Source: Branchiostoma floridae (Eukaryota; Chordata; Leptocardii; Amphioxiformes; Branchiostomatidae). Taken from it: a DNA stretch of 64,000 nucleotides. This document shows, in pieces, positions 323 through 63,471 of the stretch. The notes beneath the pieces are model-generated. The model had not been told where the DNA came from. It saw only the letters and a list, made by a program, of their open reading frames with translations, and did no database searches. A program made the translations under genes and the position numbers. Numbering within the stretch: position 1 is the stretch's first letter; every line of letters begins with the position of its first letter. The stretch lies in contig NC_049983.1 in assembly GCF_000003815.2 (NCBI RefSeq), positions 13,411,855-13,475,854 on the forward strand. The letters are read 5' to 3'.

Positions 323-3300
323 CTGCAGTTGCCGTTGTGGCAGTGCCCGTGCCCCCTGCACATGCGTGGGCACTGCTGCCCAATGTACAGGTGAGACAAG
401 GCCCAGGTGTCAGCCGGGGAGTAGTAGGACTGGCGCAGGCGGAACCTAGTCGAGCTGGACCTGAGGATGGCACATTTTAGGTTTAACTACAGCACCTGAA
501 TCCTTCATCCAGTAGTGGAATGTTAAAAAAGGCAGCACTACATTTAAATTGTTAGCTCCCTGTGTTAATAATAAGATGTAGACAAGGCAAACAGCACACT
601 TAAACACACTCAGTTGATGTAATGGTTATACTTACCATGTACGTCTTGAGAGAGGCAGTGTAACCCTTCCCCACTCTATGAACTCTGAGGGGTGGTACTG
701 GCTGGAGCTGCAGTACTGGGAGCAGCCTGTGTTGGGAGGGAGGCACTGCTGCACAACTGGCTTCCAGGTCAGACCATGGTTGATGGAGTACTCCAGGTAG
801 ATCTGGATAGAGAGCATCAGAATAAAGATTACACTTAGTCATACTGTGAACAAGCCATCTTTCCCACACTTTTTTCCAATACATTTGTTTCTGCTTCAAC
901 ATTGCAGTTTCAATTCAGAGTAATTCTGGAAAATAAAGGATAGGAAAACACAACAAATAGAGATACTTTCTCTCTCTCTCTCTCTCTCTCACCCTATTGT
1001 CTATGGTGTTGTTGTACTGGTTTCCACAGCCCATAACCAGATCAAACTGGATCATGTAGGAAGTACCAATCTGCATGGACTGGGTCTCCACATACCGCAC
1101 CAAGTCCCTCTCGTACATGCCTGCATATCTGAGATGTTCAAGACGGTGAAAAATGTCAACCAAACAACACTCAATAGGCTATTATCTTCTGTAATCAGTA
1201 CTACATACCTACTGTAACAGTTAAGTTATAACAATCATTATGGTTCCCTGTAAGGAAGGTAGGCACATACTAACAAAGTACACCTCTAAGTTAGTTTGTT
1301 ATAGTCTACAGTTATGTCATCAATAGAGGATGTTTGAGGTAGAAAGCCCAGCATTCTATAGGACCACTTGGAAATTTTTTAATCATGAACAATCCACCTT
1401 TAGTGATTTGTGGGTAGTGATTACATAACATAATTACAGCACTAGGAAATAATAAAAAGGGTTAAATCCTTACAGGAGAGTATTATCTCTGCCACAGTGG
1501 TGACCTATGACCCCCTGGTGGAAGCTCAAGGCATTATTGACATCCAGCGGGTTGCTGAAGTCCAGACTGATGGTGTTGTACAGGGCTATTGTCATGGTAA
1601 CCTCATCCAGAGCCCAGACGTCCTGATTGGCTCCTGAGTGCCTGGGTTGCCACCACCTGAACCTGACATGGGGGTGATGGGCCTCTGATGGCAGGGACAG
1701 GGACTCAATTCTAGGGGAAACAAAATAATACATTTTGTATACAGCTGAGAAGATGAGACCTTGGCATTTATAGCTAAGCTCATCAGGGATACATTGTAGC
1801 ATTAGCTTATAAGCTACACCCAATTTAGGACTAGATCTCGCCCTTTTGTTACTCTAATAATATCCATCAAATTCTGTCATTCATCAGTTTAATTCCAATG
1901 CCAGATGCAGCAATATCAAGTGATATTAAAGCCAGAGTCTCAGTGCTGGCCACTGAATATCACTGATACTGTCAGTGTAAAACGCTGTTGTCATGACTGC
2001 AAAAATACACCAAGAGTTAATATGACATTATCAATCAATGCTAATAAGAATAAAGTCAACCATGGGAAAAGAAAAACATGGACAAAGCTTACCTGGGTTC
2101 CTTGTATTCATCAAAGTGCAGTTCCTTCAAGAGCTGCCAGGTGACCCCACTGTCAGTGGAGAAGTGGAGGAGCACACCTTCCTGCCGTCGGTTAGGAGGG
2201 CGACACGACCCCAACACAGAGTTACTACCGATTCTTATGGTGAACTGCAGGAACCTGTAAAGTGTAACAATTACTTAAACATTTGTTGTAGCCTGAACGA
2301 GAATTTAAGACAAATAGGTCTAAAGTACACTGTTATAATGTTAGCATCAGATTTAATTTCCAAAGAATTGAATGATATAGTGCCTACTAACGCTACTTCA
2401 CTTCTATCTGCAGAGTAACCAAAATCCATTGTTCTTCAAAACAGGGTATTAGGGGCATAAAGACAGATGGTGGTTTCAAATTGAAATATATTCAAAATGT
2501 TCCACTGTCTTATTTTCAACATATCGCACCATTCGTTCACTTGATATCCATAAATACCGTTTTAAAAAACAATGGATATGATTTACCCAATGGATAAAGG
2601 TGAACTAGCATTACATGTAGTTAAAGATCTGAAAGGAAACTGACTTGGCATTGGTGCTGTCCAAGTCTGCAGTCACCAGTTGTCTCCTCCCTTCCCCGCT
2701 GAACACTGCAGCTTTCCCACTGGCCAGCACCCCACAGCCGAACCCCAGCACCCCACCGTCAGACAACAGGAAGTTGGGGTTGTTGTGCAGATGGCGGCCG
2801 TTGAAGGACTCTGAGAGAAAATTGGGGTTGATTCTTGCAGAGAGCTCGCAGGCAGGCCCTCCATAGCCAAGGTCACATCTGGGGATCAAAGACAATTCGG
2901 ATTTAAGGGATTCCAGCGAAGAGTAATTTGCATTGACTTTGACTTTATCTAGATTGTAGACAATACAATACACATAGGGCACAGGCAGCAATTGCTGGTG
3001 CTGTGATCACACATTAACACGTCATACATTCATTAGTATCATAATAGTATTTGTAACAGAAAAATGCCAGTGTTTATTATATCATAGAGTTTACCATTCA
3101 TTTGAATTTCACTCATTGACATTGTAATTTCTAGAAAAAAAACATTATAAAAATTAACATCTTTTTAATAATCTTAGCCACTTTAAGATAGAACATTAGA
3201 CAAGACAGCCTCACCTGCACCCCTGTGAGCTGCAGTGGCCCCTTCCTGAGCACATGTCGGGACAATGGGAGCCAATGTACACTGATGAGACAAGAAACAT

Positions 3301-9300: not shown

Positions 9301-12300
9301 TTCTGGCTGTGTCATTCAAACGATATGCATGCCATCGGAAAGGGTTGCAGTCCTTAGGACAGGACGTTAAGCCATTGTCCACAGTTCATTGTGCATGTCA
9401 AAAAGATCTAGGGGAATTTCCCTGGTACATGTACAACGAAACTGTAAATACATACATAGCATCTTTCTTCTCTGTCGCAACCAGTGGAATACTAGCACTC
9501 CAGTGAGCTAAAACTGGATTGAGATCACTTTTCTTTTTCTATCAAGTTCATACTTGATTAGGTTTCTCAAACGCAACAGTGCTGACGATTAAAATTGACA
9601 AATTCACCTTGGAGCCCGGCTCATGTGGGTGTGCATGATAGAGCACATGAAGTTGCTGCCGAATGGTTGGGTGGAAGAAATCCCGATGGCACTCAGGCCA
9701 AATGCGGACAGCTGGGAGGACTGTACAGCGGAGGTGGACGTGTACAGGCCAGTGATCAGGAACCCATTGAAGTCAGCACTGGAACTAATGGTCACTAGAA
9801 ATAACAGCAAAATCCTCCTGAATCAGAATGGTTAGTATATAATACATAATACATACATACAGGACTACAGATAGGAATTAAGGGTAATTGTCTGTAATTT
9901 TCGTGACTGGGTCCAACAGCTAACTGGGTCTGGCAGGTTACCGGGTCCGGCAGCTCACCGGGTTCGGCAGCTCACTGGGTCTGGCAGGACACCTGGTCCG
10001 GCAGGTCACCAGGTCCTGCAGGTGACCGGGTCCGGCAGTTCACTGGTCAAGCAGTTCACCGGGTCCGGCAGGTGACCAGAATCCGGCAGCTCACCGGGTC
10101 CGGCAGGACACCGGGTCCGGCAGGTCACCGGAATCTGGCAGGACAATGGGTCTGGCAGGTAACCGGGTCTGGCAGGTGACCAGAATCCGGCAGCTCACCG
10201 GGTCCGGCAGGACACCGGGTCCGGCAGGTCACCGGAATCTGGCAGGACAATGGGTCTGGCAGGTAACCGGGTCTGGCAGGTGACCAGAATCCGGCAGCTC
10301 ACCGGGTCCGGCAGGACACCGGGTCCCGCAGGTCACCAGAATCCGCCAGGACACTGAGTCTGGCAGGTCACCGGAATCCGGCAGGATGCCGGGTCCGGCA
10401 GTTGACCGGAATCCGGTAGGTCACCGGATCTGGCAAGTCACCGGAATCCGACAGGACACCGGGTCTGGCAGGCCACCGGGTCCGGCAGTTGACCGGAATC
10501 CGGCAAGTCACTGCGTCCGGCAGGTCACCGGATCTGGCAGGTCACCGGAATCCGACAAGACACCGGGTCTGGCAGGACACTTGGTCCGGCAGGTCACCAT
10601 GTCCGGCAGGTCACCGGATCTGGCAGCTGACCAGATTTTTTAAAATCTTGGCATTAATTGTGAATAGTTATAAAACTAAATTCAATATGTTGAGGTTGGT
10701 ATCATTTTAGAAGTTGTCACAATTCATACAATTTTCATTAGTGCATGACTGTATCTCTGAGTTCAGCTGTGTCTATGTTGATTTCACACAGAGCACCCAC
10801 AGGCTTGATCGACTACATGAAGCTCTCCAGTGTCCTTGTGAAGGGAATGAGTTACCCTGAACAGAGTCAGGAGTGGAGTAGATAGGACTGGAGACAACCT
10901 ACTGAAATGGGGACGGGTGAACTCAGCTGCCCAAACTATGGGACGCATTACACGGGACTGTATTAGGCCCCAACATCTCCAGCCGGGACCTGCTAGAAGC
11001 TAATGAGAAGGCCGTGGCCTGGCTGCAGTGCTAGCGTGGAGCAATATGATGATGACCCACACATTTCAAGCCCCACATTTTACTGGATCAGCAGGAAGGT
11101 GGTAATCAACAGCAACCAGCCGACTCCATAAATGTGAAACCCTCTCCTGCTGCTTCCTGTTTTTCAGCTTTCCATTTCAAAGTTACGTCAAGAAAAACAA
11201 CTCTGAGTTGAAACTGTTTCAGCTGTTGTTGGACCACCAACAGTTAATATCTGAACTCCCAGAGGGATACAGGCATACATGTACATATATGGAGGAGATT
11301 TGACAGCAGAAATATGTTTGTGTCAAATCCGATCAATGGACAGGAACAACCTGTTAAACCTCCTGCCCATACATTTAACTGTTTCATCCCAAACCTTGCC
11401 ATAATTTGCGCTTAGATTCCCCATTTTTGAGCACATGTTACTACTTGTAGATTGATATACGTACCCTCTATGTCCTTGTAGTGTGGCATTGGCAGATGTA
11501 GTAAGAGAAAACACAGATTGAACTCTGAAGTTGAGCTTGCATTCAGTTATTGTACAAATTGTAGCCTCAGTCAGAGTATCTCTACTGAGTGACTGGAACT
11601 GCAGACACTGCTAAGCTGCTAACTGGCCATGAACACTGGCTGGAAGACCAGCAAGTTGGAATCTCTGGTATCAACAACTACAACATAAAAGGTGTAAAAC
11701 TTTATACCCTATCTCCAACATGTCAAAAACCTGTCAAACTCAAAGACAAGGTATAGTCGATAAAGCGTCAGAAGGATGACGGCTGAGACTCAACGGTTTA
11801 CCGGTTTCGACCTTTTATTCAAAAGTCTTCATCAGAATGACAAGAGAGTGGTACCGCACTGGCTTTTATAGCCTCTACTCTAGTTAGGGCAGTGCGCCCT
11901 GAGCAGTTAGGGCAGGAGATAGCCAATCAAAGACAAGGTATAAAAACATCTGACATACCCATATTTAGACAACTGGTGCACATTTATGGACAGTTTTACA
12001 TAGTTTCTCCGGCTGAAGGTGCCCTACACCCAGACAGTACCTGCCCTGCTATATGCCCCTGCCCTGACCTGTACATGTACCTTATGTACATGTGTCCCTT
12101 TAGCCGTGAACCTGTGACATCGTAGGTTACAGTTCAGCACGAAATTGGGGCGATTATCAGACAAGAATGAGACCCAATTCTACACACATCACAAATTTAT
12201 TTAAATGCATGATTTTCATAATTTACAGAAATACAATTTAACAAAAGTTGAAATTATTGTTCATTGTTTTCTTTTTCCTCCATCCCTTACTGTATGTAAA

Positions 12301-34399: not shown

Positions 34400-34622
34400 A
34401 CGGATAACGGCGTGCAGGTGGTGTTTGTGTTTGTTTACGGTGCAGGTGTGTCCGCTACTCGATACGTAAAGTACGTAAACAGATACAACGGAACTAAAGC
34501 AGTTTTAGAGAAGTGTAGAGTCCAATTTCCACAAAATCTACGGGGTCACCCTCGGTTGAGTGTCCGTTTACGGTGCGGTGCGCCAACCGGACCGTCCTGA
34601 TACCGGACAACATTCAAACCAG
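34400..34622 (+). other. Probable 5' UTR exon of the LHFPL gene
   Basis: GC-richer sequence ending at a strong donor (CCAG|GTGAGA, exon end 34622). A matching acceptor (TTTAACAG, exon start 35064) precedes the first coding exon at 35093. The 5' limit is a guess. Confidence 0.45.
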
Positions 34623-34920
34623 GTGAGATGGAAACATTGGTGTAGGATTACAATCGCCATACCCGGCCCGCTCTTGATTTGTCCAGGCTTTATTTTCTAA
34701 CGTAATTTAATACGTTTGATTAATGAAATGTTAAAGTTGCAATTGTAGTATACCCACCCCTGTTGTCAGTTATGTATATTCCAATTATTAGTATGAATAT
34801 TCTAAAGTAAAGTTAAAAGGCTAAAAGATCACTGATGAAGGAGTAAAATTTAGCACTCCCAAGATCACAAGTGTTTGCTGATCCTATTGTAAAAATTTCT
34901 AGCTGTGACGTGTGCAAAGG

Positions 34921-35020
34921 NNNNNNNNNNNNNNNNNNNNNNNNNNNNNNNNNNNNNNNNNNNNNNNNNNNNNNNNNNNNNNNNNNNNNNNNNNNNNNNN
35001 NNNNNNNNNNNNNNNNNNNN
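34921..35020. other. Assembly gap (100 N)
   Basis: Unknown bases inside the first intron of the LHFPL gene. Frames running through it are artefacts. Confidence 1.
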
Positions 35021-35092: not shown

Positions 35093-38000
35093 ATGTACAA
35101 CGAGGAGCTGAAGATCTACCACAGTAGCTACATCCGCAACGCACGGGCCATCGGTGTCTTGTGGGCCATCTTTACGATATGTTTTGGGATCATAAACCTT
35201 GTAGTATTCATTCAGGTAAGTGTATTACCTCTATATATTATACAAGCTGTAATTCTCAAACACCTTGCTGTAGACCTAGTAGTGATTACTAGTATCAAGG
35301 AAGTTTTATCATTATATAAATAAAACCTCCTTGATATTAGCAAAGGACTTTTGAGGTAAAAATTTGCATATATCTTAACCCTTTGCCTAAGAGCTGATTA
35401 TCTAGTTCTATCCAATGGCAGTTGACAGGAGTATGCCTTGATATACTGTAATCAATCATTGTAGCAGTCATGTTCTGCATATAGCTGTACATACCAGATT
35501 GCAGGAGCAGATAGAGCATTTTGTTTTGGTAGATGCAGTCATGCCTGTCTTACAGAGATTGCAGTTAGTCAACTTATGCATATCAAAAACAAGTGAAGAA
35601 GTGTATTCAATGCCACCTTGCAAACACCTTGTTCCAGCAAAAATGAATTGAACATCAAGTAGATCTGTACATCCAAAACAGCACTGGATGTACAGTAAAA
35701 TAATTTAGACTACTAACATTAGTATTTAGAACAGGGATGGACCTTTCTTCAAGTGAAGTGTATTTTTCCAGAAAAGATTAACTGTATCCACATTCCGATT
35801 TGGTAAATAGATTTGTTTTCAAACATTAAGACAGCTGTATGAAATGTATGACGAGCCTTGAATAGCACATACATGTATATACATTTAGTATTCGAAAAAA
35901 TTCCATTATAAAATCTATACACATTATGATATGCACTTGTATTGCCATATTCCTTGCAGGTGTAGGCCTCCTGTTGACAGCTTGTATACAATAACTCAGT
36001 TCTGAAGCTTGACCAATCACTCCAATTACATTACCTCCTTGTGTTACATGTAAAAACTTCCATCATAAATTCCTGTAGTAATTCTAACCATACATCCATT
36101 CCCTGATTATCCATTTTCTTACTTTATAACTTGCATATCACATGCACCACCAGCCAAGGCTAGGAAGTCAGTATGGTAGTTGGCATTGGGCCCAAAAGTA
36201 ATTGTTTCTTGTTACTTGTCGGATATAATCTTAATGTAAACCATAGCCAATTGGCAGAAGTCCATTTCTGCAAGGTGAGACATCAACATGTGCACATTGT
36301 TCCATAGTTGTGCTTGCAGGAGTTTGCAGGCTTATACTTTTATTACAATCCCCAAAGTAGCAATCAGGTATGTTGAGTTATTATCAAACATGCACTGAAC
36401 AGCCATAAATGCAGGCTTTTCATTATTCGGGTGCATTAACGTTATAGCAATTTTGCAAGGCTTATTGCATGGCATTCTTTTGTCCTACAATATGAACCCA
36501 GGAATAGTAAAGGCACTGGCTGATGATATGACACAATCCCATTCCTTTTGAAAAGAAATATTTCAGCAGATGATGTTACTTGCTTTTATTGGTAGTAGAA
36601 TGACACAGTTATAACTATATAAGAATCAGGTCCTATTCGTATACAAAGGACAAATTTAGCAACATCTATATTTCTATTAACAAGGCAGATGGTGTGAAAA
36701 ATTCAAAGAAACATTCAACTGTTGTAGTTCATATCAATACTTGGTCCAAAACTGTCTTTCAAACAGCCTTTGCATTAAGATAGGCAGTTATGATGTTGGT
36801 ATCTAAATTTAGATAACAGTAAATGTCAAAGAAATAAAGAAAGCTGTCAACACACAAAGATACAGGTACAGATAGAACCTAATGGCCTCCCTTTGTGTTG
36901 CTGTCTACTTGTATTGCTAGTATGTGCATTCATTTGAACATAGCAAACCATGTATGGAGATGTACATAATATGATAAGAATTGAATTGAATATGGTTTAG
37001 ATGGTTCAACCCCTTTTTGGAAAAAATAATNNNNNNNNNNNNNNNNNNNNNNNNNNNNNNNNNNNNNNNNNNNNNNNNNNNNNNNNNNNNNNNNNNNNNN
37101 NNNNNNNNNNNNNNNNNNNNNNNNNNNNNNNNNNNNNNNNNNNNNNNNNNNNNNNNNNNNNNNNNNNNNNNNNNNNNNNNNNNNNNNNNNNNNNNNNNNN
37201 NNNNGCTACAACCTCTCTATCTTTTCTCCTTTCATTTGTCAACTGATTAGATGCAACATTGTGTTATCATTGCAATGATAATAGGAAAATACAAAAATTT
37301 GAGAATAAAACATGCCTCACCTTTCCACTTAATGACAGAGAATCAAGATATATAAGTAAAACTGTGTCATGCAGACCCACTTTAAGATTTATATAAATTC
37401 ATGGCAAATTCAATACAGCAAAACAGCTGTCATACTTTTCATCCCTTTAATGGCTAAACTATATCTAGCTGACCTAGATACTAGGCATCTCTGGTGTATA
37501 CTTATTGATGAAATTTGGGATGAAGGCAACTGAGCTGAAAAATGTTTTTCAATACAGTATAAGCCAAAATAAGGAACAATACATTTGAGAAGACGTCAAT
37601 ATTTCAGGGTGGAGAATGTATAGCTACATTTGCTAATAATTTGTACATGCTATAATGTGTCATATCTTGTATCGCTTGATGAGATTTTATTTCTCTCCTC
37701 AGCCATTCTGGATAGGTGACTCCAAGGACACACCTATGACTGGTCACTTCGGCCTGTACCGGTACTGTCTGGGCAGAGGGCTGACACAAACCCTTCAGTG
37801 TGAGGGACGGCTAGACGACTTTGCCACCATTCCCAGTGATGCTTTCAAGGCAGCCACCTTCTTTGTGGGGTTCAGCTTCCTGATGATCCTCATCTGCATA
37901 ATCTGCATGCTACTCTTCTTCTGTGTACATGCAGAGAAGGTCTACAAGATCTGTATGTGGCTGCAAATTGTCTCTGGTGAGTTTTTGCTGGTTGCTTTGT

Positions 38001-41000
38001 TTAAAAATGTGATTATGTCTCTATGGTATGGCCCTGTTACCAAACCAGGACCCAGCCGGGCAGCTTTTGGGAACAAAAAGTATGGTATAATTATTAGAGA
38101 CGACAAACACACAGAACATGAAAAAAAATATTCATTAGCATAATTGGTGTATATTCTATGATTAACACCTTAATTATTTGGAAATATCCCAGCTGGGTCT
38201 TGGTTTGGAAATATGACCTGAGTATTATTCGGGTAAACAGTTGGGTTCTGTTAACAGGTGGTTGGTTACATTGACAATGTGCTCATGTACCGGACCCAAA
38301 TTTTACCTCATCCGTCCAAATATTCAGAACTTCATGGTCTGAGACTGATGAGAGTGACATCATCAAGACTGTATTTTCATAAGTATGAAATAACACATAT
38401 ATCATTGAAATGTAGTAACCTGTGCTCCTAAACAATATGTGTGAGAGAAAAATATTCAAAGATAGAGACAGTCCAGTTCACAGACCATTCTTCCTGGTTC
38501 CCTGTATTATACCTCTGATAGTTTGTTTGCTTTTTAAATCCATTATCACCCTACTGTAAACTATGTAGCATCCCAACATAATGAACAGGGTGTGTCTTTT
38601 CACAGCATGTGTAATGGGAACTAAATCCTTCACAAATACTGTTGATAGGAGGGTGTGTCTGTGTGATTACATACAGTCTTTATAGACTCTCCCTGCTCAA
38701 CCACAATATACCACCCTGTGGCTGCATATGTTTAGGCTATTTAACTTGTTTACAATATTTATCTAGTCCTTCTATGACAAACACACAAGACAATGCTGGA
38801 TACAATTGTAGTAATTGGGCCAAATGGTCTGGTGATTGCAATAAGCTGGAGGCAGTTAGTGTCTCACTGCTCTATCCTCAATGAATGACAAGAATAGAAA
38901 ATGAGTGTATGCAAATAAAGGAATAGGTATACGGAATTGCTATAATGGAATAGGTGACTGGGTACTAAGAGAAGCAAGAGAGGATCATCTAAAGAACAGT
39001 GACTGGTTCTTTTTTTATGGAAAGACATGGATATAAGCATCTTCCCTTCTCTTTCTGTCACACATTTAGGTTATAGAACCCACATTCATTGGTTAGAATG
39101 GGCAGCTAGCGTGACAACTGTTTAACATGTGAGAACTGGGGGCCAGGGTCAACTCTGCTGCAGAGGGCAGGGTGGTTAGACTGGTGCACCCTGGAACCAG
39201 CATATCTTACATTTGAATGCAACGTATCGGAATTAAATCTGTTCCCGTGGTAACGTCTTTTCTATTCATAGCAAAGGATCTATGGGACAAGTAGAACCTA
39301 TACACTTATTACCTTCAAATACATACATGTAGTTTACGTGTAACAGGAGAAGACAAGCAATTAAGGATCATAATATGACTTAAGTGTGTGAAATCAGCTC
39401 CTTCGACTCCCTCCTTCTATTTTTTGTCATATACCACTGAGTAATGGTCTCTAAAACTGAGGTTTTCTGCAATTTGAATTTTCAAATGCAGCGTCTAGCT
39501 TTATCAAGGATATATTATCCAACGGAACATGTTTTTCCACCATTATCATTTACTTAGAAGCAGGATTATGTCCATATGCATGTTCCAGGGCTGGCTCAAA
39601 GAAAAGTGGCAGGTGATTTCCATAACAATGGTGCTGGGTGACCTCAGACCCAGTAATTGTTAGAGCGGCCTCTATCTCGCAACAACACCCAGTCTATTGT
39701 TGTCAGTGGGAGTCGTCTCCAGTGGGACGATTGAGCTGGAATATTTGTGTGTCTCAGGTTCTGAATGTTGGACACAACAGCTGCAAGAAGTCAGCCAGAT
39801 TGCCAGTTTTTACGTGGCTAATTGGTTAAAATTGTTCTTAGATTAGAACAGATAGATTTCTTTAGTTGGGCAGTGTCTGACTTAGCCTTGGACGTGCCCG
39901 ACCTATTCAAATGGTCTAAATTCTTCCCCTTTCAAGGCATATTTGGGATTACAGTATAGCCTAGTTTGCGTGAGTCTTGTAATCCCTGTTGTCACCATGT
40001 CTGTTGTTGGCGACTACTATGGGGAGACGGCCATGTACGGCCCTGCGTTGCGGGACGACGACATGGATCGCCATTTCTACTGGCACAAGATCCAGGTCCG
40101 CGTGATCTCGGTGCTATGGGCGATCTTCACGGTCTGCTGGGCCATCATGAACATCGTGGTGTTTGTCCAGCCCTTCTGGATTGGAGATAGCAACACCACT
40201 CCGATGTCAGGGTACTTCGGCCTGTTCCAGTACTGCCTGGGAGGCGCGACGCCGACGCTGACTTGTAGCGGAAGGTTTGACGACTTTAGCTCCATCCCAT
40301 CCGATGCCTTCCGTGCGTCTGCGTTCTTCGTCTTTTTCTCCATCCTCATGGTGATGATCGTGATCATCTTGATGTTCCCGTACTTTTGCCTGGTGTACAT
40401 CGATGACCGGCGGGACGTTAGCAAGCCCCCCAGCCGTGCTCACGTCGTCATCATGATCGTTTGTGGGGTGCTTCTGCTCATCTCTGGTGAGTCATAAAAG
40501 AGCATTAAACCAAAAGCTTCGCAATGGATTTTTCAATATCCGAAGGCACTAATGCCACTGACATTTTTCCTGTTTTGGAATGTTATTTCGGAAAATATTT
40601 AAAACTACAGAAAATTGCATCTGATAGTGAATGATCAACTGTATTACTTGAAACATTACAAACAAAATGGTTTTTAATGGATCTTTGGAGGGATTGCAAT
40701 GAACAAAGTAAGTGATAACGTCAGATAAGACTTCATCTCAGACAATGCCTTTGAGATATATGCTGATGATGGTGATGATGACTGCCCCACGGTAAGCTCA
40801 TAATTTTGTTGAATCTTTTATAGTGAAAAGTTTATTCTGTGATGCCAGCAGATAAATTCAAGAATTTTTTGAGTGTTTAAGATACATCAAACCATGTCCT
40901 TGTTGGTCCATACTAACATAAAACACAATGTCTTCAATATCTAAATTCAATGTGCCCCATTTTATTGAGAGAGAGACTTAGACATCTATGAAATAGCTTA

Positions 41001-44000
41001 TTTTGTGTTGGTAAAAGTCCCATATTGTGTGTAATATACACTATATACAGCGTGTGCACACTGCACAACTAAGGAATGGCCTGTCCCACTGTGCCTACTC
41101 CAGGTGTATGGGTGTGGCAATTGTAATGGTGGAAACAGTTACCTTATAAATTATGCAGGTGTTCCATGTCCTGTAGGAATTTCCACAAAGGTCACACTTT
41201 TTAAAGCTCAGGATGTACAGGACAAAGCACCCATTTTGTTTTCATTTCATGCCATGAATACTGTTATCATTCTCAAGAAAAAGCGTCATACCTGTATTCT
41301 CCATGTAATGTGTTTTTCATTTCAGATGCCATGTTTGTTATGCATGTATTATGGTGAAAATTTATTGATTAGTATGTTTCATGAATGCCACGACCAAGAC
41401 TGTGCCGCATTGTTCAAACATTTCCTGACAAGTTTGTTATCCTAAAGAGTGTTGGTTTAGGTACTTAGCTATCAGCATGTGCTTTTATACCTCCACTGAG
41501 CTGGGAATTGAAGGTCATACCGGCATAGCCTTCTGTGTGAGTTGTTCAGACCCACCCAACCAGTTGTATCTGTGTGAGTCATCATGTATATTCCCACGGT
41601 CGGCCTTACTGGCTTTTTTCCCTGCAGATATTCTGGAGCCAACTACCAATACTTGAGCATGTCTTCCAGCATCAGCAAAAATTTTCAAGACTCCAGTGAA
41701 AATTTTTGATCTTAAAGAATTGCATCAATTCTCTTTCAATATTTCGTTACTGTATTGCTTGGCTAGTCCTTGAATTAGGACCTTTTTAAAAGAAGAATAC
41801 AAGGTAAGATACAGGTGTAATGGCAGGTACTAAAAATGTCCACAAAGTAAATAAGATGACTTAGGTACAATCCATTAGTATGGTCTGGACCTAGACGGGC
41901 AGTTATTTAGCACTTTTGTTATGTATGGCTGATACCAGCAATTTTCTGCCCCATTAGGAACAGATAGGATCTGGTAGCCTATCTGAATAATGACACAGAC
42001 TGGGGGGTACCTGGGAGATTCTGTCTAGCAACAAGGGTGTTGGCAGCAATTCCCATTGAGGATAATGAAGACTGAAGAACTGTATTTTTGCAAAAATTGT
42101 CTCACTGTTGTTTTATCCGGCAACATTTTCTCACAGGACTTCCTTTGGAGACATATAAGAGCAAAGAAAAAACACACTGTACTCAAATAGGTGTAGATTT
42201 TGTATTCCTGCTTTTACTCTACAGCCTGAGGTCAACTGAGTGCCTTGCTCTTCAAAGGATTTTTATTTCAAACGAAATCATATTTCAAATTATACATTGC
42301 AAATACGGTTTACCCCTGTGGGAAATCACACTACCGGTAGTATCTTATTTAAAAGGAAAATAAACTTCTCTGTATATGTACAAGTATCCCACTCTGCAAT
42401 ATAATGATGTATGTTGTATTCTGTCCAGCCCTGTGCATGTTCCTGGCCTGTGTGATCTACCCTGCTGGTTGGGACAACTCTCTAGTAGCTGGACTGTGTG
42501 CCAATGGTGCAGAGAAGTACCAGCAAGGGGAGTGCACCATCCGCTGGGCCTACATCCTCGCCATTATCGGTATCTTCGACGCAGCCATCCTCGCAGCCCT
42601 CGCCTTCTTCCTGGCCGACCGACAGGAGAAGCTGGCCTTTGCCTCTCACGGACTGATCAATGGAGGCCCCGCCGGTATGGTCCCCCCTCCCCAGGCTATC
42701 CCTCCCTCTCTCCTCCCCACTGCTGCTGAGTTACTGGCTGAACCCAACCCTGACTACATGGGATAATCCAGTAACTGTCTGTCTCTTTTTTGTCTCTCTG
42801 AACTTCTGTAATGCAATATCTTATGCTTGTGAATTTACGTTTTGTGTTGTTTAAGACAATCATGAACAATATCTACTATTTTGTTCAGCTGTCCTACTGT
42901 TTTGAAGTTGCTATGCCTGTACAGTTGTTTTCCTTGTACCAAAAATGTCTTCATTGTGCATTGTAGTGCTATGTCATTTTTATCCCTTTCCTTCTGTGTA
43001 CGCGTCGAAGACACTGATAATGTAACAGTTAACAGTATAAGGTTAATATAACAAATTGAATAAAAGGTTGGTACAGATATGAAAACTACTCCATTGAACT
43101 ATTGTGTATACATAATATACTAGTAAGATTGAAGTATTTCCAGATGTACAATATACTGTTCTTATTTTCAAGCTATCTCTATACACATCTCTTGCTCTAT
43201 AATCTGTCAAGGAACATCTACCTGCCATGTGGAGGAAAAATTTTAGATGAATTGCAAACAAAGCTTGATTCAACAGAGTGTTTTGCTGCTGCAAAACTTG
43301 ACACAAGTCTTTTAACAAGTGACTGTACTCTTTATACATTCCTCCTGTCACTGTTCATTTTGTACTCTTTGTTCTACATTTGTACAAAGCTTCAATTGTA
43401 CTTAGTACTAATATAGATTCATGAAGTTGTTCCTGTTTCTAACTTGTGACAACTGTCTTTCCTCTTCACTGTGTCTGCACAACAGGTTTGTGCTGTCTAT
43501 ATGTATCCTACGGCTCATTTTTACTTGGATGAAACATTTTGACACAATGATGTGAGCTATGTGTTTATAGACTTCTCACATGATGCATTCTTCAAGCAAT
43601 AAAAACTTGACATAAAGTTGTATCATTGCCTCTAGTATTTTGAACCATTCATGCTTCTTATACATGCTTAGAAAGAGGAGCACAAACATTGTCAGCTGCA
43701 ACTATGTCTGTTAAGTTGTTGGTCATGTCAAAATAGATTCAAATTGGAAAGTATTTCCTTTCTGTAATATTAAATTCTGTAAAGACTTGTTTCACACAGA
43801 GCTGCGGGCAGGTAGAAGGGAGGACAGAATGCCAGCTGAACAGGAGACACCATGCTGATGGAGGTGCTATGCTAACAATGAAAGCCACAGCATTCGAAAT
43901 CTTGATTGTCTAATTCCAATGATATACAGCACCCTTATCTACGAAACTGACAGCGAACAATAATTGATATTTTACTGTTGATACGTTTTGAATTCATGAG

Positions 44001-56700: not shown

Positions 56701-59700
56701 TTCACAGAAGGTACACATATTGTTTTTGCTTAGACGTTCTTTTTTTCCGCGCACCTCAAAAACATGAATATCTCCGAAAGTAGAGCTTGGATTAACTTGA
56801 AAGCCAGAGTTATCTGGTAGGCCTGTACATAACGCACTGCACCGTGGTCATTCGGGCCCACATAGACCCAAAATAATGATTTTATGGAGCAAAAAAGGGT
56901 GAAAAAAATAGCAATTTTAACACAAAATCGAACTTTAGAACACCTCTGGAATCTTGGAACGTTGTTCGAAACGAGGTCAACGACCGCCGCAGCTATCGAA
57001 CAAGCCGCCGCGCCAGCAGAAGGAAATATAATACCCCAAAAGTATCGAAATGTGTGGAGAGGTAGGTCACTAATTGTAAAAACTTCCTTTCACGCCAAAG
57101 GCTCCGGAGTATGAACGCGCAAAATTCTACATCTTTGTCACAACAACGAACAAAATTCCCGCCCATGGCAACACCGGAAACTAAATATGATGACCTTTGC
57201 CGTCTGATCGGCACCGCATTTGATCTCAAAGTACGCGGCAAATGCCTTGTTATTCCAGTCAGTTCAGTGCAAAGTCATGATATACTTTGAACCACATTTG
57301 TTTTTTACTCCGCTTAAGTTGCAAGTGTTTTACCCGGTTTGTTTTTGGACAGGCAAGGAGAAATTAGTTTCAATGATGTTCGTGTTATGATGCATTCAGT
57401 GATTTACATATTCTCAGATCGAACCGCTGCCTGTCAATCAAGTTGCGAACGTCCTGGGAATCTAAGGTTTCATACAGACATGTTTGCTACATCAATATCC
57501 GTCGCATGCCGGCTTGTGTATCGTTAGCCGGCCACCGGGGATTTTCCAAGCTCAAATTTATACGTCGTGCCTCAAACCAAAGGGGTTTTATGCCTCATCT
57601 GTAAAACAATTAAATTTGCATGGCGATTTTTTAGTAAGTTAAATGTAAGATGTGCCACAACGTAGCGACCATGCTTCGAACGTAACGTGTTAACCATTTT
57701 TAAAGCTCAAATTTCCTTGGCGACGCAAAACTTGCAATTGGCTACTGTACACAATCCTATGAATCCCGCGATTCATTCAGACGACAGCTCTGTGCAGAAA
57801 TTTATACTCAGTGATTTTTTTAACCTCCTTGCTCAGTCAAAATCTTACAAGCAGTTAGTAAAAAGATCAAGATCAAAAGCAAACTTATTTTTCACGGTTT
57901 ATGTAAGGCCCCGCCCTTACATAAAATGCCGCATGATTGCAAGCTGGTGAGGTCTGAGCCCTTGTCGTCAACTATATTGAAAGTATCTTTGACATTTGAA
58001 TTTACATATTTATCTTCTTTTTTAAATTTGACTTCTGTACGTATGTGGTAGCAATAACTGACAGTTAATCGTGGGGGGCGGCGGGGGGGGGGGGGATAAT
58101 AACAAAAAAGTCAGCAATATGCGACTGACCATAGCAGTAGGGTAGGGGGATTCTCCTACATACATATGCTGGCGGGTTCGACCGGTCGCTTCACTCTAGC
58201 CGCCGGGAGGGGTTAGGAACTACATGTATCATCTAAACCAGNNNNNNNNNNNNNNNNNNNNNNNNNNNNNNNNNNNNNNNNNNNNNNNNNNNNNNNNNNN
58301 NNNNNNNNNNNNNNNNNNNNNNNNNNNNNNNNNNNNNNNNNNNNNNNNNNNNNNNNNNNNNNNNNNNNNNNNNNNNNNNNNNNNNNNNNNNNNNNNNNNN
58401 NNNNNNNNNNNNNNNNNNNNNNNNNNNNNNNNNNNNNNNNNNNNNNNNNNNNNNNNNNNNNNNNNNNNNNNNNNNNNNNNNNNNNNNNNNNNNNNNNNNN
58501 NNNNNNNNNNNNNNNNNNNNNNNNNNNNNNNNNNNNNNNNNNNNNNNNNNNNNNNNNNNNNNNNNNNNNNNNNNNNNNNNNNNNNNNNNNNNNNNNNNNN
58601 NNNNNNNNNNNNNNNNNNNNNNNNNNNNNNNNNNNNNNNNNNNNNNNNNNNNNNNNNNNNNNNNNNNNNNNNNNNNNNNNNNNNNNNNNNNNNNNNNNNN
58701 NNNNNNNNNNNNNNNNNNNNNNNNNNNNNNNNNNNNNNNNNNNNNNNNNNNNNNNNNNNNNNNNNNNNNNNNNNNNNNNNNNNNNNNNNNNNNNNNNNNN
58801 NNNNNNNNNNNNNNNNNNNNNNNNNNNNNNNNNNNNNNNNNNNNNNNNNNNNNNNNNNNNNNNNNNNNNNNNNNNNNNNNNNNNNNNNNNNNNNNNNNNN
58901 NNNNNNNNNNNNNNNNNNNNNNNNNNNNNNNNNNNNNNNNNNNNNNNNNNNNNNNNNNNNNNNNNNNNNNNNNNNNNNNNNNNNNNNNNNNNNNNNNNNN
59001 NNNNNNNNNNNNNNNNNNNNNNNNNNNNNNNNNNNNNNNNNNNNNNNNNNNNNNNNNNNNNNNNNNNNNNNNNNNNNNNNNNNNNNNNNNNNNNNNNNNN
59101 NNNNNNNNNNNNNNNNNNNNGTAGAAATGAAACTTATTGGATAGTGGTAAAAGTGAAACCAATATGGGAGCTATGAGTGTGGCTAGCCACTTTGTTGGTT
59201 GATGCCAGTCTACCACACTAGTGTCACTTTTACTACACCAGTACATGTCTTAAATACAGGAATGAATGCCTTCTTGGCTCTGATACCATGTTTTGTCCCT
59301 TTATTTCTTTTTACAACAGTCATCACAACTTTATGGTGCCTATTTTTGAAAATGTAGCCAACTTTTTTTCACCCATCTTGTTTTTTTTCGCCCTATCGCA
59401 CTATTTTTGCAATCTGCAGAGGGTGTCATCCATAAAATTTACTTGCTGTGGCCTGATAGATTTCAAAGCTTTTTTTAAACATTTGATTACATATCGTTGA
59501 AGGAAACCAATTTTGTCCATGGCTCTCTCCCCAATTTCCAAGTAGAAATGTTAGGCTAGACCATGTGAAGGTAAACATTCTGTATTTGTTTGCAAATGTT
59601 ACCTTTCTAGTTTTGAACTTTGTATTTGTATCGATTTATGAAATATATCTGTTGCATACTTAAAAAAAACTTGGTTCCTGTGATCATTGAGTCAGGTTTT

Positions 59701-61085: not shown

Positions 61086-63471
61086 ATGGGAAACGTGACG
61101 ACATCAGACCTGCCCACAGAGAAACAGCAGGGAGTCCGGACACTTCTGGACTTGAGCAGGAAGTTGAACTATCATCAATATGTGAAGGTTGGAGAAGTCA
61201 TATGTTCCTTCTAGTCCAGATTAAGTACCTAAGATAAGTTTCTTGGAGATTCATGGTCTTATTATTCTGTCGCTGAAAGTATATAAAACGTATTTGCCTG
61301 TTATTGTTTCTTTTTAATCAGTTACAACTTATTAACACTCTCATTGTGCACTCTTGCTAATCCATTGGTAATTTTTGGTAGCCTTGAGTAATGACATGTT
61401 CTGCATCTAGCCAGGTAAGAAAACCTATTATACCTTTTGAGTCTGTTTCATCTTGGTCTATTTGCAAAGAGGATGAAAGAAACTCGGCAGATATAATAAA
61501 ATACCAGACTACTAGTATAATCAAATTATCATAAAAACACTATAGAGCCCAATTTACAGCAGGGTACTTGAGGACTTCCCCACAAATTTGCCCATTGCCC
61601 AACATGTATTTTTTGTCCTCTGTAACATTAGCCGTTGGAATGTAGTTGGCCTTTAGTAAACAATCTGTGTTCCAATGCATTTCACAAGCTCATGTAATAA
61701 TGAGACAAGCATGTTTAAACCATGACACTGGTCCTAGGTCAGCTTAAACAAACTCATCTAACAAGGGTTTAATGGAAGTCCTATCATAATTTAGTACTTT
61801 TTCACAGGTTGTCATTTTCTCATCATCCTTTCTGCCTACAGCATGTGAACAATGAAGACCTGAACGCAGGCAGCCTGACAGCTCTACCATGGACACTTCT
61901 GAGCTCTGTGTCTCTCCATGGGGGCCTGGATGCCTCCTTTAACTCAGTCCCAGAGATACCCAAGGACCTGCCCCTCCACCTGCCCCATCTAACCTACATC
62001 AACCTACAGTACAACTGTCTGGCTACTCTTCCTGACAGGTCAGTACATGTGTGTTATTCTGTCTGTAAATTCTCATTTTTTGTTGTTCATTGTTTATCAA
62101 CTGCTGATCTTTTTCTATTACCGGTACTGATGATACCCTAATGATAGGGAATTCTCTCCTCCTGCATATTTTGTTGCACCACAAGTAGTTGTAGTATGAT
62201 AACATAGCCTATATTCTCAGTTTTGTTTTGTTTTTTTTCCTTTTGTTTGTAGTATTTCCCTGTTCTTCCACCTGAGAACCCTGTTGCTGAGTCATAACCA
62301 GCTCCAGACCTTACCTGCATCCTTCATCCATTTGTCCAAGCTGCAGAAACTGGACCTGTCTCACAACTGTCTCACAGAGCTCCCACAGGACATTGGAAAC
62401 CTGCAGGCCCTACAGAGACTCAATGTTTCCAACAACAAATTACAAAACCTTCCTTTGTCATTAGGAACATCGCAAACTCTACAACTTTTGCTTGCTGTCA
62501 GCAATAAATGTTGCATGCCCCCACAACAAGTGTGCAATCAGGGTTCAGATGTGACTCTAAACTATCTGAGAACTCAGGTACCAAATGGTGTACCTTCCTC
62601 TGAACACGCCACCCCAAGATTTAACACCTTCAAAAGGAAGAGAGGACATGTGTTGCACGCATCGGTTCAGAACCCACATTGTGCACGGAGCCTGTATGCA
62701 CAGGAGCAGACGCACACAACAAACACGACCAGCAGGAACCGTACGCCACTCCGCCCCCCTCCCCACGGGACCAAGCTGCACGCTGACACACTGATGGACA
62801 GGGTGCTGGGTGAGTAACTTTGGTAGCTTTTATCTAACTTCCAACATAGCTTTCTGTCTGCTTCCTGTTCTTCTGTTACTTCTGCAAGGGTTCCAGTTCT
62901 AGTAAAACAGACTTGAATATGAAGTTCTTTTTTAAATCTATTAAGCATGAGTTTCCAAAGGTCAAGTGACCTACCCCAGTACAAACAGTGGCTTGATCTT
63001 AGTTTGGTGTGAAATAGTTTCCAGTGTGTTTACATTTTGTTGCTAATAGTACTCTAGTAACAGTTGTTGTGCAGGGGTGAAAGGGTACGTAGGGATTTTT
63101 TTAGATTAAGCAACTAAGACAAAGTTACTATGATCAAAGGTATAAATGGATATAGCACTTACATAAACTTTGGATTAACATTACGTTACTTCTGGAAAGA
63201 GGAATATGCCTTGGAGGAAACATATTAGACTCTAGTACTTCTACAACTCTTGATAATTATCTTATAACCCATTTTCCCCAACATTTCCCGACCAGGACTT
63301 CTGTATGGTGCTGCCATAGGAGACGCCATAGGTATTGCTACAGAGCTGATGACACCTGATGAGTGCAGGTTCCACTACAATGCAGAAACCCTGTCCTACT
63401 CAGACATCATCAGGGACAAGCACAGGGTGAGGTGGAGACCTGGAGACTGGACAACTGACTTTGATCAGACT
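61086..63471 (+). CDS. Leucine-rich repeat / ADP-ribosylglycohydrolase fusion (3' part outside window)
   Basis: Coding exons seen: 61086-61187 (or to 61181; two in-frame donors), 61842-62038, 62253-62809, 63296-63471, the last ending at GTAAGT in phase 0; the gene continues past 64,000. From the N-terminus: MGNVTTSD, a possible N-myristoylation site; four leucine-rich repeats (about residues 85-175; e.g. LRTLLLSHNQL, LQKLDLSHNCL) with a C-terminal cap like those of SHOC2-type proteins (PPQQVCNQGSD...LNYLR); a basic, Pro/Thr-rich linker of about 75 residues; then the start of a DraG/ARH domain at residue 286 (GLLYGAAIGDAIGIATELM). The first metal-site region reads WTTDFDQ (337-343) where DraG/ARH enzymes usually have W-T-D-D-T. 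DraG/ARH enzymes remove ADP-ribose from proteins or small molecules; whether this one is active cannot be told here. An upstream acceptor near 61068 suggests a 5' UTR exon in the shared promoter region. Confidence 0.85.

Follow-up and report, generated by a model that had tools for sequence, protein, structure and literature searches.

Two homologous heads before one common tail exon in an LHFPL-type gene of Branchiostoma floridae

Introduction

Can a single LHFPL gene provide two different four-pass membrane proteins by choosing between two first halves, or do such halves belong to neighbouring genes, to a silent relic or to an assembly artefact? The question is raised by a locus of the amphioxus Branchiostoma floridae, found in a stretch of 64,000 nucleotides (contig NC_049983.1 of RefSeq assembly GCF_000003815.2, positions 13,411,855 to 13,475,854, forward strand). 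In the following, "the window" denotes this whole 64-kb stretch and all coordinates count from its first letter. Two coding heads, named A and B, precede one tail exon in the window, i.e., the layout of two heads and one tail is confirmed in the sequence. Going further, we assign a probability of roughly 0.77 to the reading that this is an LHFPL3/4/5-type gene whose first coding exon was anciently duplicated, such that alternative starts would yield two proteins from one tail.

Results

Exon layout and splice sites

All exons of the gene lie on the + strand. Head A comprises two coding exons. The first (A1, 35093-35215) carries the start codon, the N terminus and the first transmembrane segment (TM1) and ends in CAG|GTAAGT at phase 0; the second (A2, 37703-37976) encodes the first extracellular loop (ECL1), TM2 and the start of TM3 and ends in CTG|GTGAGT at phase 1. 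Head B is a single coding exon (39997-40486) with a longer N terminus, TM1, ECL1, TM2, a longer inner loop and the start of TM3, and it also ends in CTG|GTGAGT at phase 1. The tail exon (42429-42766) provides the remainder of TM3, ECL2, TM4, the C terminus and a TAA stop. A preliminary description of the locus had let the feature end at 42674, which is 92 bases short of this stop.

The coding lengths of the heads are 397 nt (132 residues) for A and 490 nt (163 residues) for B, both leaving phase 1, and the joined products A+tail and B+tail have 244 and 275 amino acids with no internal stop in either. As the preliminary description had claimed, the heads are homologous (69/131 residues identical, 53%) and diverged, they finish at a homologous codon in the same phase, and they can be joined to one common tail exon. 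Both are open and end on an identical donor. TM4 and the C terminus are consequently common to both products. The start codon of head B stands in the context CACCATG and is preceded by an in-frame stop at 39883. The frame of head A continues upstream into a run of ambiguous bases (N), and the start codon of A is less certain than that of B.

We scored splice sites with approximate weights and ranked each among all + strand sites scored in the window (3769 GT and 3954 AG). The A1 donor is the top-scoring GT site, and only 13/3769 sites reach or exceed the score of the donors of A2 and B; there are 15 instances of the motif GTGAGT itself on the + strand of the window. The A2 acceptor is equalled or surpassed by 18/3954 AG sites. 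At 39937 lies an acceptor of fair quality, TTCCCCTTTCAAG|G, equalled or surpassed by 84/3954 AG sites, and no other acceptor scores positive within the 300 bases upstream of B (39700-39996). Positions 39937-39996 behind it may form a 5' untranslated part of the B exon. Past the shared stop, the first AATAAA/ATTAAA (43059-43064, +) is a candidate poly(A) signal by motif match only; such motifs occur too in the introns 3' of A2 and 3' of B.

Family membership and the conserved TM3 intron

Both products match the LHFPL profile of Pfam (PF10242, cut-off 25.2 bits) with 199.6 bits for A+tail and 163.5 bits for B+tail, and the profile also finds parts singly (80.9 bits for head B, 79.5 bits for the tail). 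Among solved chains, the best matches of the products are LHFPL4 and LHFPL5, LHFPL4 being the nearest for A+tail. A simple hydropathy profile, the only basis for our membrane segments, gives four hydrophobic segments per product and places the head-tail junction within the third. The cysteine pair of ECL1 (C68/C79 in LHFPL5), named as the disulfide of the first loop in the LHFPL5 structure (PMC6092121), is retained in both A and B. A further LHFPL5 pair between TM2 and TM3 (C114/C130), which may not define the whole family, is kept completely in A.

The position of the head-tail junction can be related to mammalian genes. In our alignment it falls directly after LHFPL5 residue 137. According to a study of a deaf cat, the second coding exon of LHFPL5 has its acceptor at c.413-2, i.e., a boundary at c.412|413, with the exon ending at c.412 being the first coding exon (PMC12706688). 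Since c.413 lies in codon 138 at phase 1, matching junction and phase of heads A and B, the TM3 intron is common to this gene and mammalian LHFPL5. The placement of the human LHFPL5 variants c.527 and c.575 in exon 2 is consistent with this boundary (PMC11431586). Mouse primers called "Lhfpl5 exon 1" (PMC7920537) encode residues 93-99 and 112-117, so the mouse start codon must lie in the same exon and the mouse head is a single exon.

The intron expected for the LHFPL3/4/5 subfamily is thus present at codon 138 in phase 1, a position known here for LHFPL5 only; for LHFPL3 and LHFPL4, we found no usable description of the gene structure in the parts of the open-access literature searched. Taken together, the locus appears to be an LHFPL3/4/5-type tetraspan gene without assignment to a specific vertebrate orthologue by the four-head tree described below. 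Judged from LHFPL5 only, the one-exon head of B corresponds to the mammalian LHFPL5 layout and the extra intron of A is the oddity. This intron, located between IQ and PFW, was presumably either gained in A or lost in other lineages.

Divergence and age of the heads

Nei-Gojobori estimates for A versus B are 0.42 for nonsynonymous divergence (dN) and about 2.5, i.e., near saturation, for synonymous divergence (dS). At the 69 shared residues the same codon is used 31 times, where 30.3 are expected under independent codon choice. Because dN is far below dS although codon choice at the shared residues looks independent, purifying selection has long maintained both heads. Near-saturated dS and codon sharing at chance level further imply that the duplication is old, that neither head has decayed and that no recent gene conversion is needed. 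We considered such conversion for a 74-nt direct repeat within the coding parts (37700/40168) and found no support for it, given 8 identical codons in 18 shared residues with 7.9 expected. A pair of short direct repeats located at exon boundaries was dropped as well, as they are not clearly above shuffled sequences (33/100 and 10/100 shuffles).

An unrooted tree of four heads (A, B, LHFPL4 and LHFPL5; 123 columns, with LHFPL3 left out) sets A+B against LHFPL4+LHFPL5, and both alternative groupings are rejected by the approximately unbiased (AU) test (p 0.0015 and 0.0014). The branch of B is about three times longer than that of A (0.54 vs 0.18). Being unrooted and small, the tree does not date the duplication, and since A groups with B, it does not mark the gene specifically as one of the vertebrate members.

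Search for further heads and tails

To the 2106 stop-free frames of the window (at least 20 amino acids; frames with long N runs omitted), phmmer searches with A+tail and B+tail gave three matches only, namely A2, B and the tail; A1, whose frame runs into N, was found by tblastn instead. Outside the four exons, tblastn of the whole window gave only matches with E of at least 0.10, i.e., no third head and no second tail. Apart from the N gaps, both searches therefore detect no extra head or tail in the window, in agreement with the one common tail of the preliminary description. A comparison of A+tail with viral and prokaryotic contigs gave 2 and 33 pattern matches, respectively, among which no relative was confirmed; it is uninformative on animals.

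What the choice of head exchanges

Identity between A and B differs by region: 0/14 in the N terminus, 17/28 in TM1, 33/47 in ECL1 and 13/24 in TM2. ECL1 is therefore the most similar of the exchanged regions, and ECL2 is encoded by the common tail and hence identical, which contradicts the earlier statement that the heads swap most of the ectodomain. Compared with LHFPL4, TM1 is identical at 25/28 positions in head A and at 18/28 in head B, and in ECL1 B is no farther away than A (29/47 and 27/48). One NXT sequon is found in ECL1 of B and none in head A. In the structure of LHFPL5 with PCDH15, dimerization within the membrane is chiefly mediated by TM1 of LHFPL5 and by PCDH15, which contacts the second LHFPL5 at TM1 (PMC6092121). 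Given this role of TM1 and the similarity of ECL1, the swap affects mainly the membrane face, the cytoplasmic N terminus and the inner loop. By analogy, we infer that it would alter the choice of membrane partner or dimer mate.

Alternative explanations

Several observations weigh against alternative starts of one gene. The tail acceptor is only moderate, with 269/3954 AG sites scoring at least as high. The 400 bases preceding B contain no TATA match, nor do the stretches tested upstream of A. The inner loop and the TM3 start are poorly alike in A and B (6/18 identical). Moreover, B appears to be the less canonical head: it has L instead of the cysteine at LHFPL5 C114 and lacks the TM3 tryptophan W132 (C130 aligns; the alignment of B to LHFPL5 is loose around the TM2-TM3 stretch), and B+tail stays below the cut-off of the PMP22_Claudin profile (24.9 vs 26.7).

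Two further points concern weak splice sites and a possible tail relic. The preliminary description had called the heads mutually exclusive. This stands for the route via the acceptor at 39937: splicing A2 to it leads to a stop 8 codons beyond head A (residue 140, the head having 132), such that inclusion of both heads would be unproductive and the heads are exclusive in effect. It is less certain for weaker sites, since an AG at 39965 that is not positive-scoring would leave A2+B open to the end of B, and AGs at 40187, 40211 and 40244 inside B, with scores below 0, would leave A, part of B and the tail open. As to a tail relic between A and B, one out of 8 protein comparisons (4 regions times 2 queries) was reached by just 5/300 shuffles; on the DNA level the respective value is 10/100 shuffles, obtained at a different place.

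This relic bears on the explanation that A and B are tandem genes, one of which has its own tail that is unrecognised, lies in a gap or has decayed, so that the sharing is only apparent. The stretch in question (38590-38751, +; score 43) is weakly tail-like, and tblastn places a match with E 0.49 at 38575. Gaps that could hide a tail exist, namely the N runs at 34921-35020 (100 N, upstream of A), 37031-37204 and 58242-59120. None of them, however, lies between A2 and the tail, and the window yields no second tail. The stretch at 38590 carries a stop and is the lowest among the 8 comparisons, the next lowest being 16/300 for the A1-A2 intron, and a query with the LHFPL4 tail gives no signal in the same A2-B intron (122/300 shuffles). 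The best DNA-level match in this intron is located elsewhere (39572), and among all 16 exon-intron comparisons on the DNA level (100 shuffles each) the lowest value is 7/100. Intron-intron comparisons on this level scored 86 to 117 and, having no shuffle control, were left out of account. We take the shuffle results as chance, consider a relic of a separate A tail improbable and regard two tandem genes as unlikely.

Improbable to a similar degree is the explanation that a single head is in use, the second being a relic that is silent or spliced aberrantly. It would fit the long branch of B and its loss of two conserved positions between TM2 and TM3. A silent copy of that age, however, would be expected to lack frame and donor, and here both heads are open and have good donors despite near-saturated synonymous sites.

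The preliminary description had also proposed that B may derive from a processed, i.e., reverse-transcribed, copy. B does lack the internal intron of A, and its GC content is 0.559 compared with 0.463 and 0.507 in A. Yet B ends exactly at the old exon edge with a donor, which is absent from a reverse-transcribed spliced message, and the head of mammalian LHFPL5 is likewise one exon, so that the shared layout needs no processed copy. We consider this origin very unlikely. The related suggestion that A gained its intron holds in so far as the intron of A is the unusual one, with loss in other lineages as the alternative. In the simplest history, the first coding exon would have been duplicated in tandem, the copies would have diverged, and A would have acquired one intron.

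False duplications occur in assemblies of highly polymorphic genomes, and N gaps lie near A; nevertheless, two haplotypes placed end to end are ruled out for practical purposes by the divergence of A and B, since 53% protein identity, near-saturated synonymous sites and unequal intron numbers are beyond allele divergence and since, besides the 74-nt coding repeat, direct repeats of the region are just 21-29 nt long.

Transcription starts

The favoured reading of one gene with alternative starts calls for separate start sites and transcripts of both forms, which we infer from the layout. CCAAT and loose initiator matches are found before B and in 34400-34920, for which no chance control is available, and the NRF1 pattern has no match in the stretches tested before heads A and B.

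First exons often escape germline methylation. The ratio of observed to expected CpG is 0.99 in B, 0.91 in A1, 0.23 in A2, 0.41 in the tail and 0.39 in the window; possibly, the two start exons A1 and B escape germline methylation.

Neighbourhood

Reelin-like exons are located 32-34 kb before head A on the opposite (-) strand, at 1473-1853 and 2614-3006. Both match Pfam Reelin_subrepeat-B (E 3.2e-13 for the first and 1.4e-8 for the second), and the second is also similar to Reelin chains of the PDB (E 5.3e-30). Among 20 further frames compared with Pfam, they are the 2 Reelin matches; 2 more match leucine-rich repeats and 16 have no match. On human chromosome 7, LHFPL3 adjoins ORC5 and RELN is nearby (PMC10244266). 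The Reelin neighbour thus suggests the LHFPL3 locus, and it suggests that the neighbourhood of RELN and LHFPL3 is old and may be conserved in chordates.

Leucine-rich-repeat coding stretches lie at 61773-62138 and 62203-62814 (+). The second passes the cut-offs of PF12799 and PF13855 and the first stays below them; the end of the 62203-62814 frame presumably resembles LRSAM1. A 119-codon frame at 10284-10643 (+) consists of a near-repeated short unit rich in proline, glycine and arginine and has no Pfam match.

Discussion

Proposed origin and mode of use

Under the reading we prefer, the first coding exon of an LHFPL3/4/5-type gene would have been duplicated long ago ahead of the conserved phase-1 TM3 intron. 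Transcription would begin in front of head A or close to head B, and the selected head would be spliced to the sole tail exon (42429-42766) to give LHFPL proteins of 244 or 275 amino acids. Both forms would have ECL2, TM4 and the C terminus in common and would differ in the N terminus, TM1, ECL1, TM2, the inner loop and the start of TM3.

Such a choice of start, exchanging TM1, TM2 and half of TM3, would amount to a natural domain-swap experiment. It would show which half of an LHFPL protein sets the choice of partner and which half is common machinery. LHFPL4 is required for the synaptic clustering of GABA-A receptors (PMC5640807) and LHFPL5 belongs to the transduction complex of hair cells (PMC10801851). 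A speculative extension, which we rate as rather doubtful, is that an unduplicated chordate genome runs two LHFPL jobs from one gene by the choice of head. If so, A would be the slowly evolving, LHFPL3/4-like form and B a fast-evolving form with an altered membrane face, an extended inner loop and perhaps a glycosylation site. In vertebrates, such jobs would instead have been distributed over LHFPL3, LHFPL4 and LHFPL5 by whole-genome duplication, and promoter choice would here switch the partner of an accessory protein of receptors or of mechanotransduction.

Comparison with known systems

Within the family, mammalian LHFPL5 has the same intron position and phase (codon 138) and a one-exon head like B. 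It differs in that the alternative Lhfpl5 form of the mouse involves exon 2 rather than the head (PMC7920537); no second head appeared in the literature searched. Nor did we find a report of an alternative-head LHFPL gene in the parts of the open-access literature searched, including LHFPL combined with amphioxus. In one of the papers that combine the two terms, LHFPL is mentioned with regard to vertebrate hair cells and in a reference (PMC10973136). The likeness to LHFPL4 is expressed in A+tail, which is nearest to LHFPL4 among solved chains, and in the TM1 of head A; the four-head unrooted tree, however, sets A+B apart from LHFPL4+LHFPL5.

The organisation as such is found in claudins, which are a different family. 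CLDN18 has two alternative first coding exons, and one first exon of CLDN10 carries the name exon 1a. The two CLDN10 forms, 10a and 10b, have different versions of TM1 and the first loop; in 10b, residues 1-73 are encoded by exon 1b (PMC5521874). The predicted LHFPL forms are built like those of CLDN10, i.e., two forms of a four-pass protein differ in TM1 and the first loop and have the remainder in common, and also in the LHFPL gene two homologous starts are compatible in frame with one downstream part. Even the PMP22_Claudin profile (cut-off 26.7) matches A+tail, though barely (28.3), while B+tail falls short of it. Besides the family, the differences concern the exchanged part, which comprises 132 and 163 residues and reaches into TM3 here compared with the first 73 residues in CLDN10, the extra intron in one of the heads, and the use of both forms, which is established for CLDN10 and predicted for the LHFPL gene. 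An alternative-first-exon organisation of the CLDN10 type is already known, and what would be new is its occurrence in an LHFPL gene. If both transcripts exist, this gene would work like CLDN10 and would extend such an arrangement to a second four-pass protein family.

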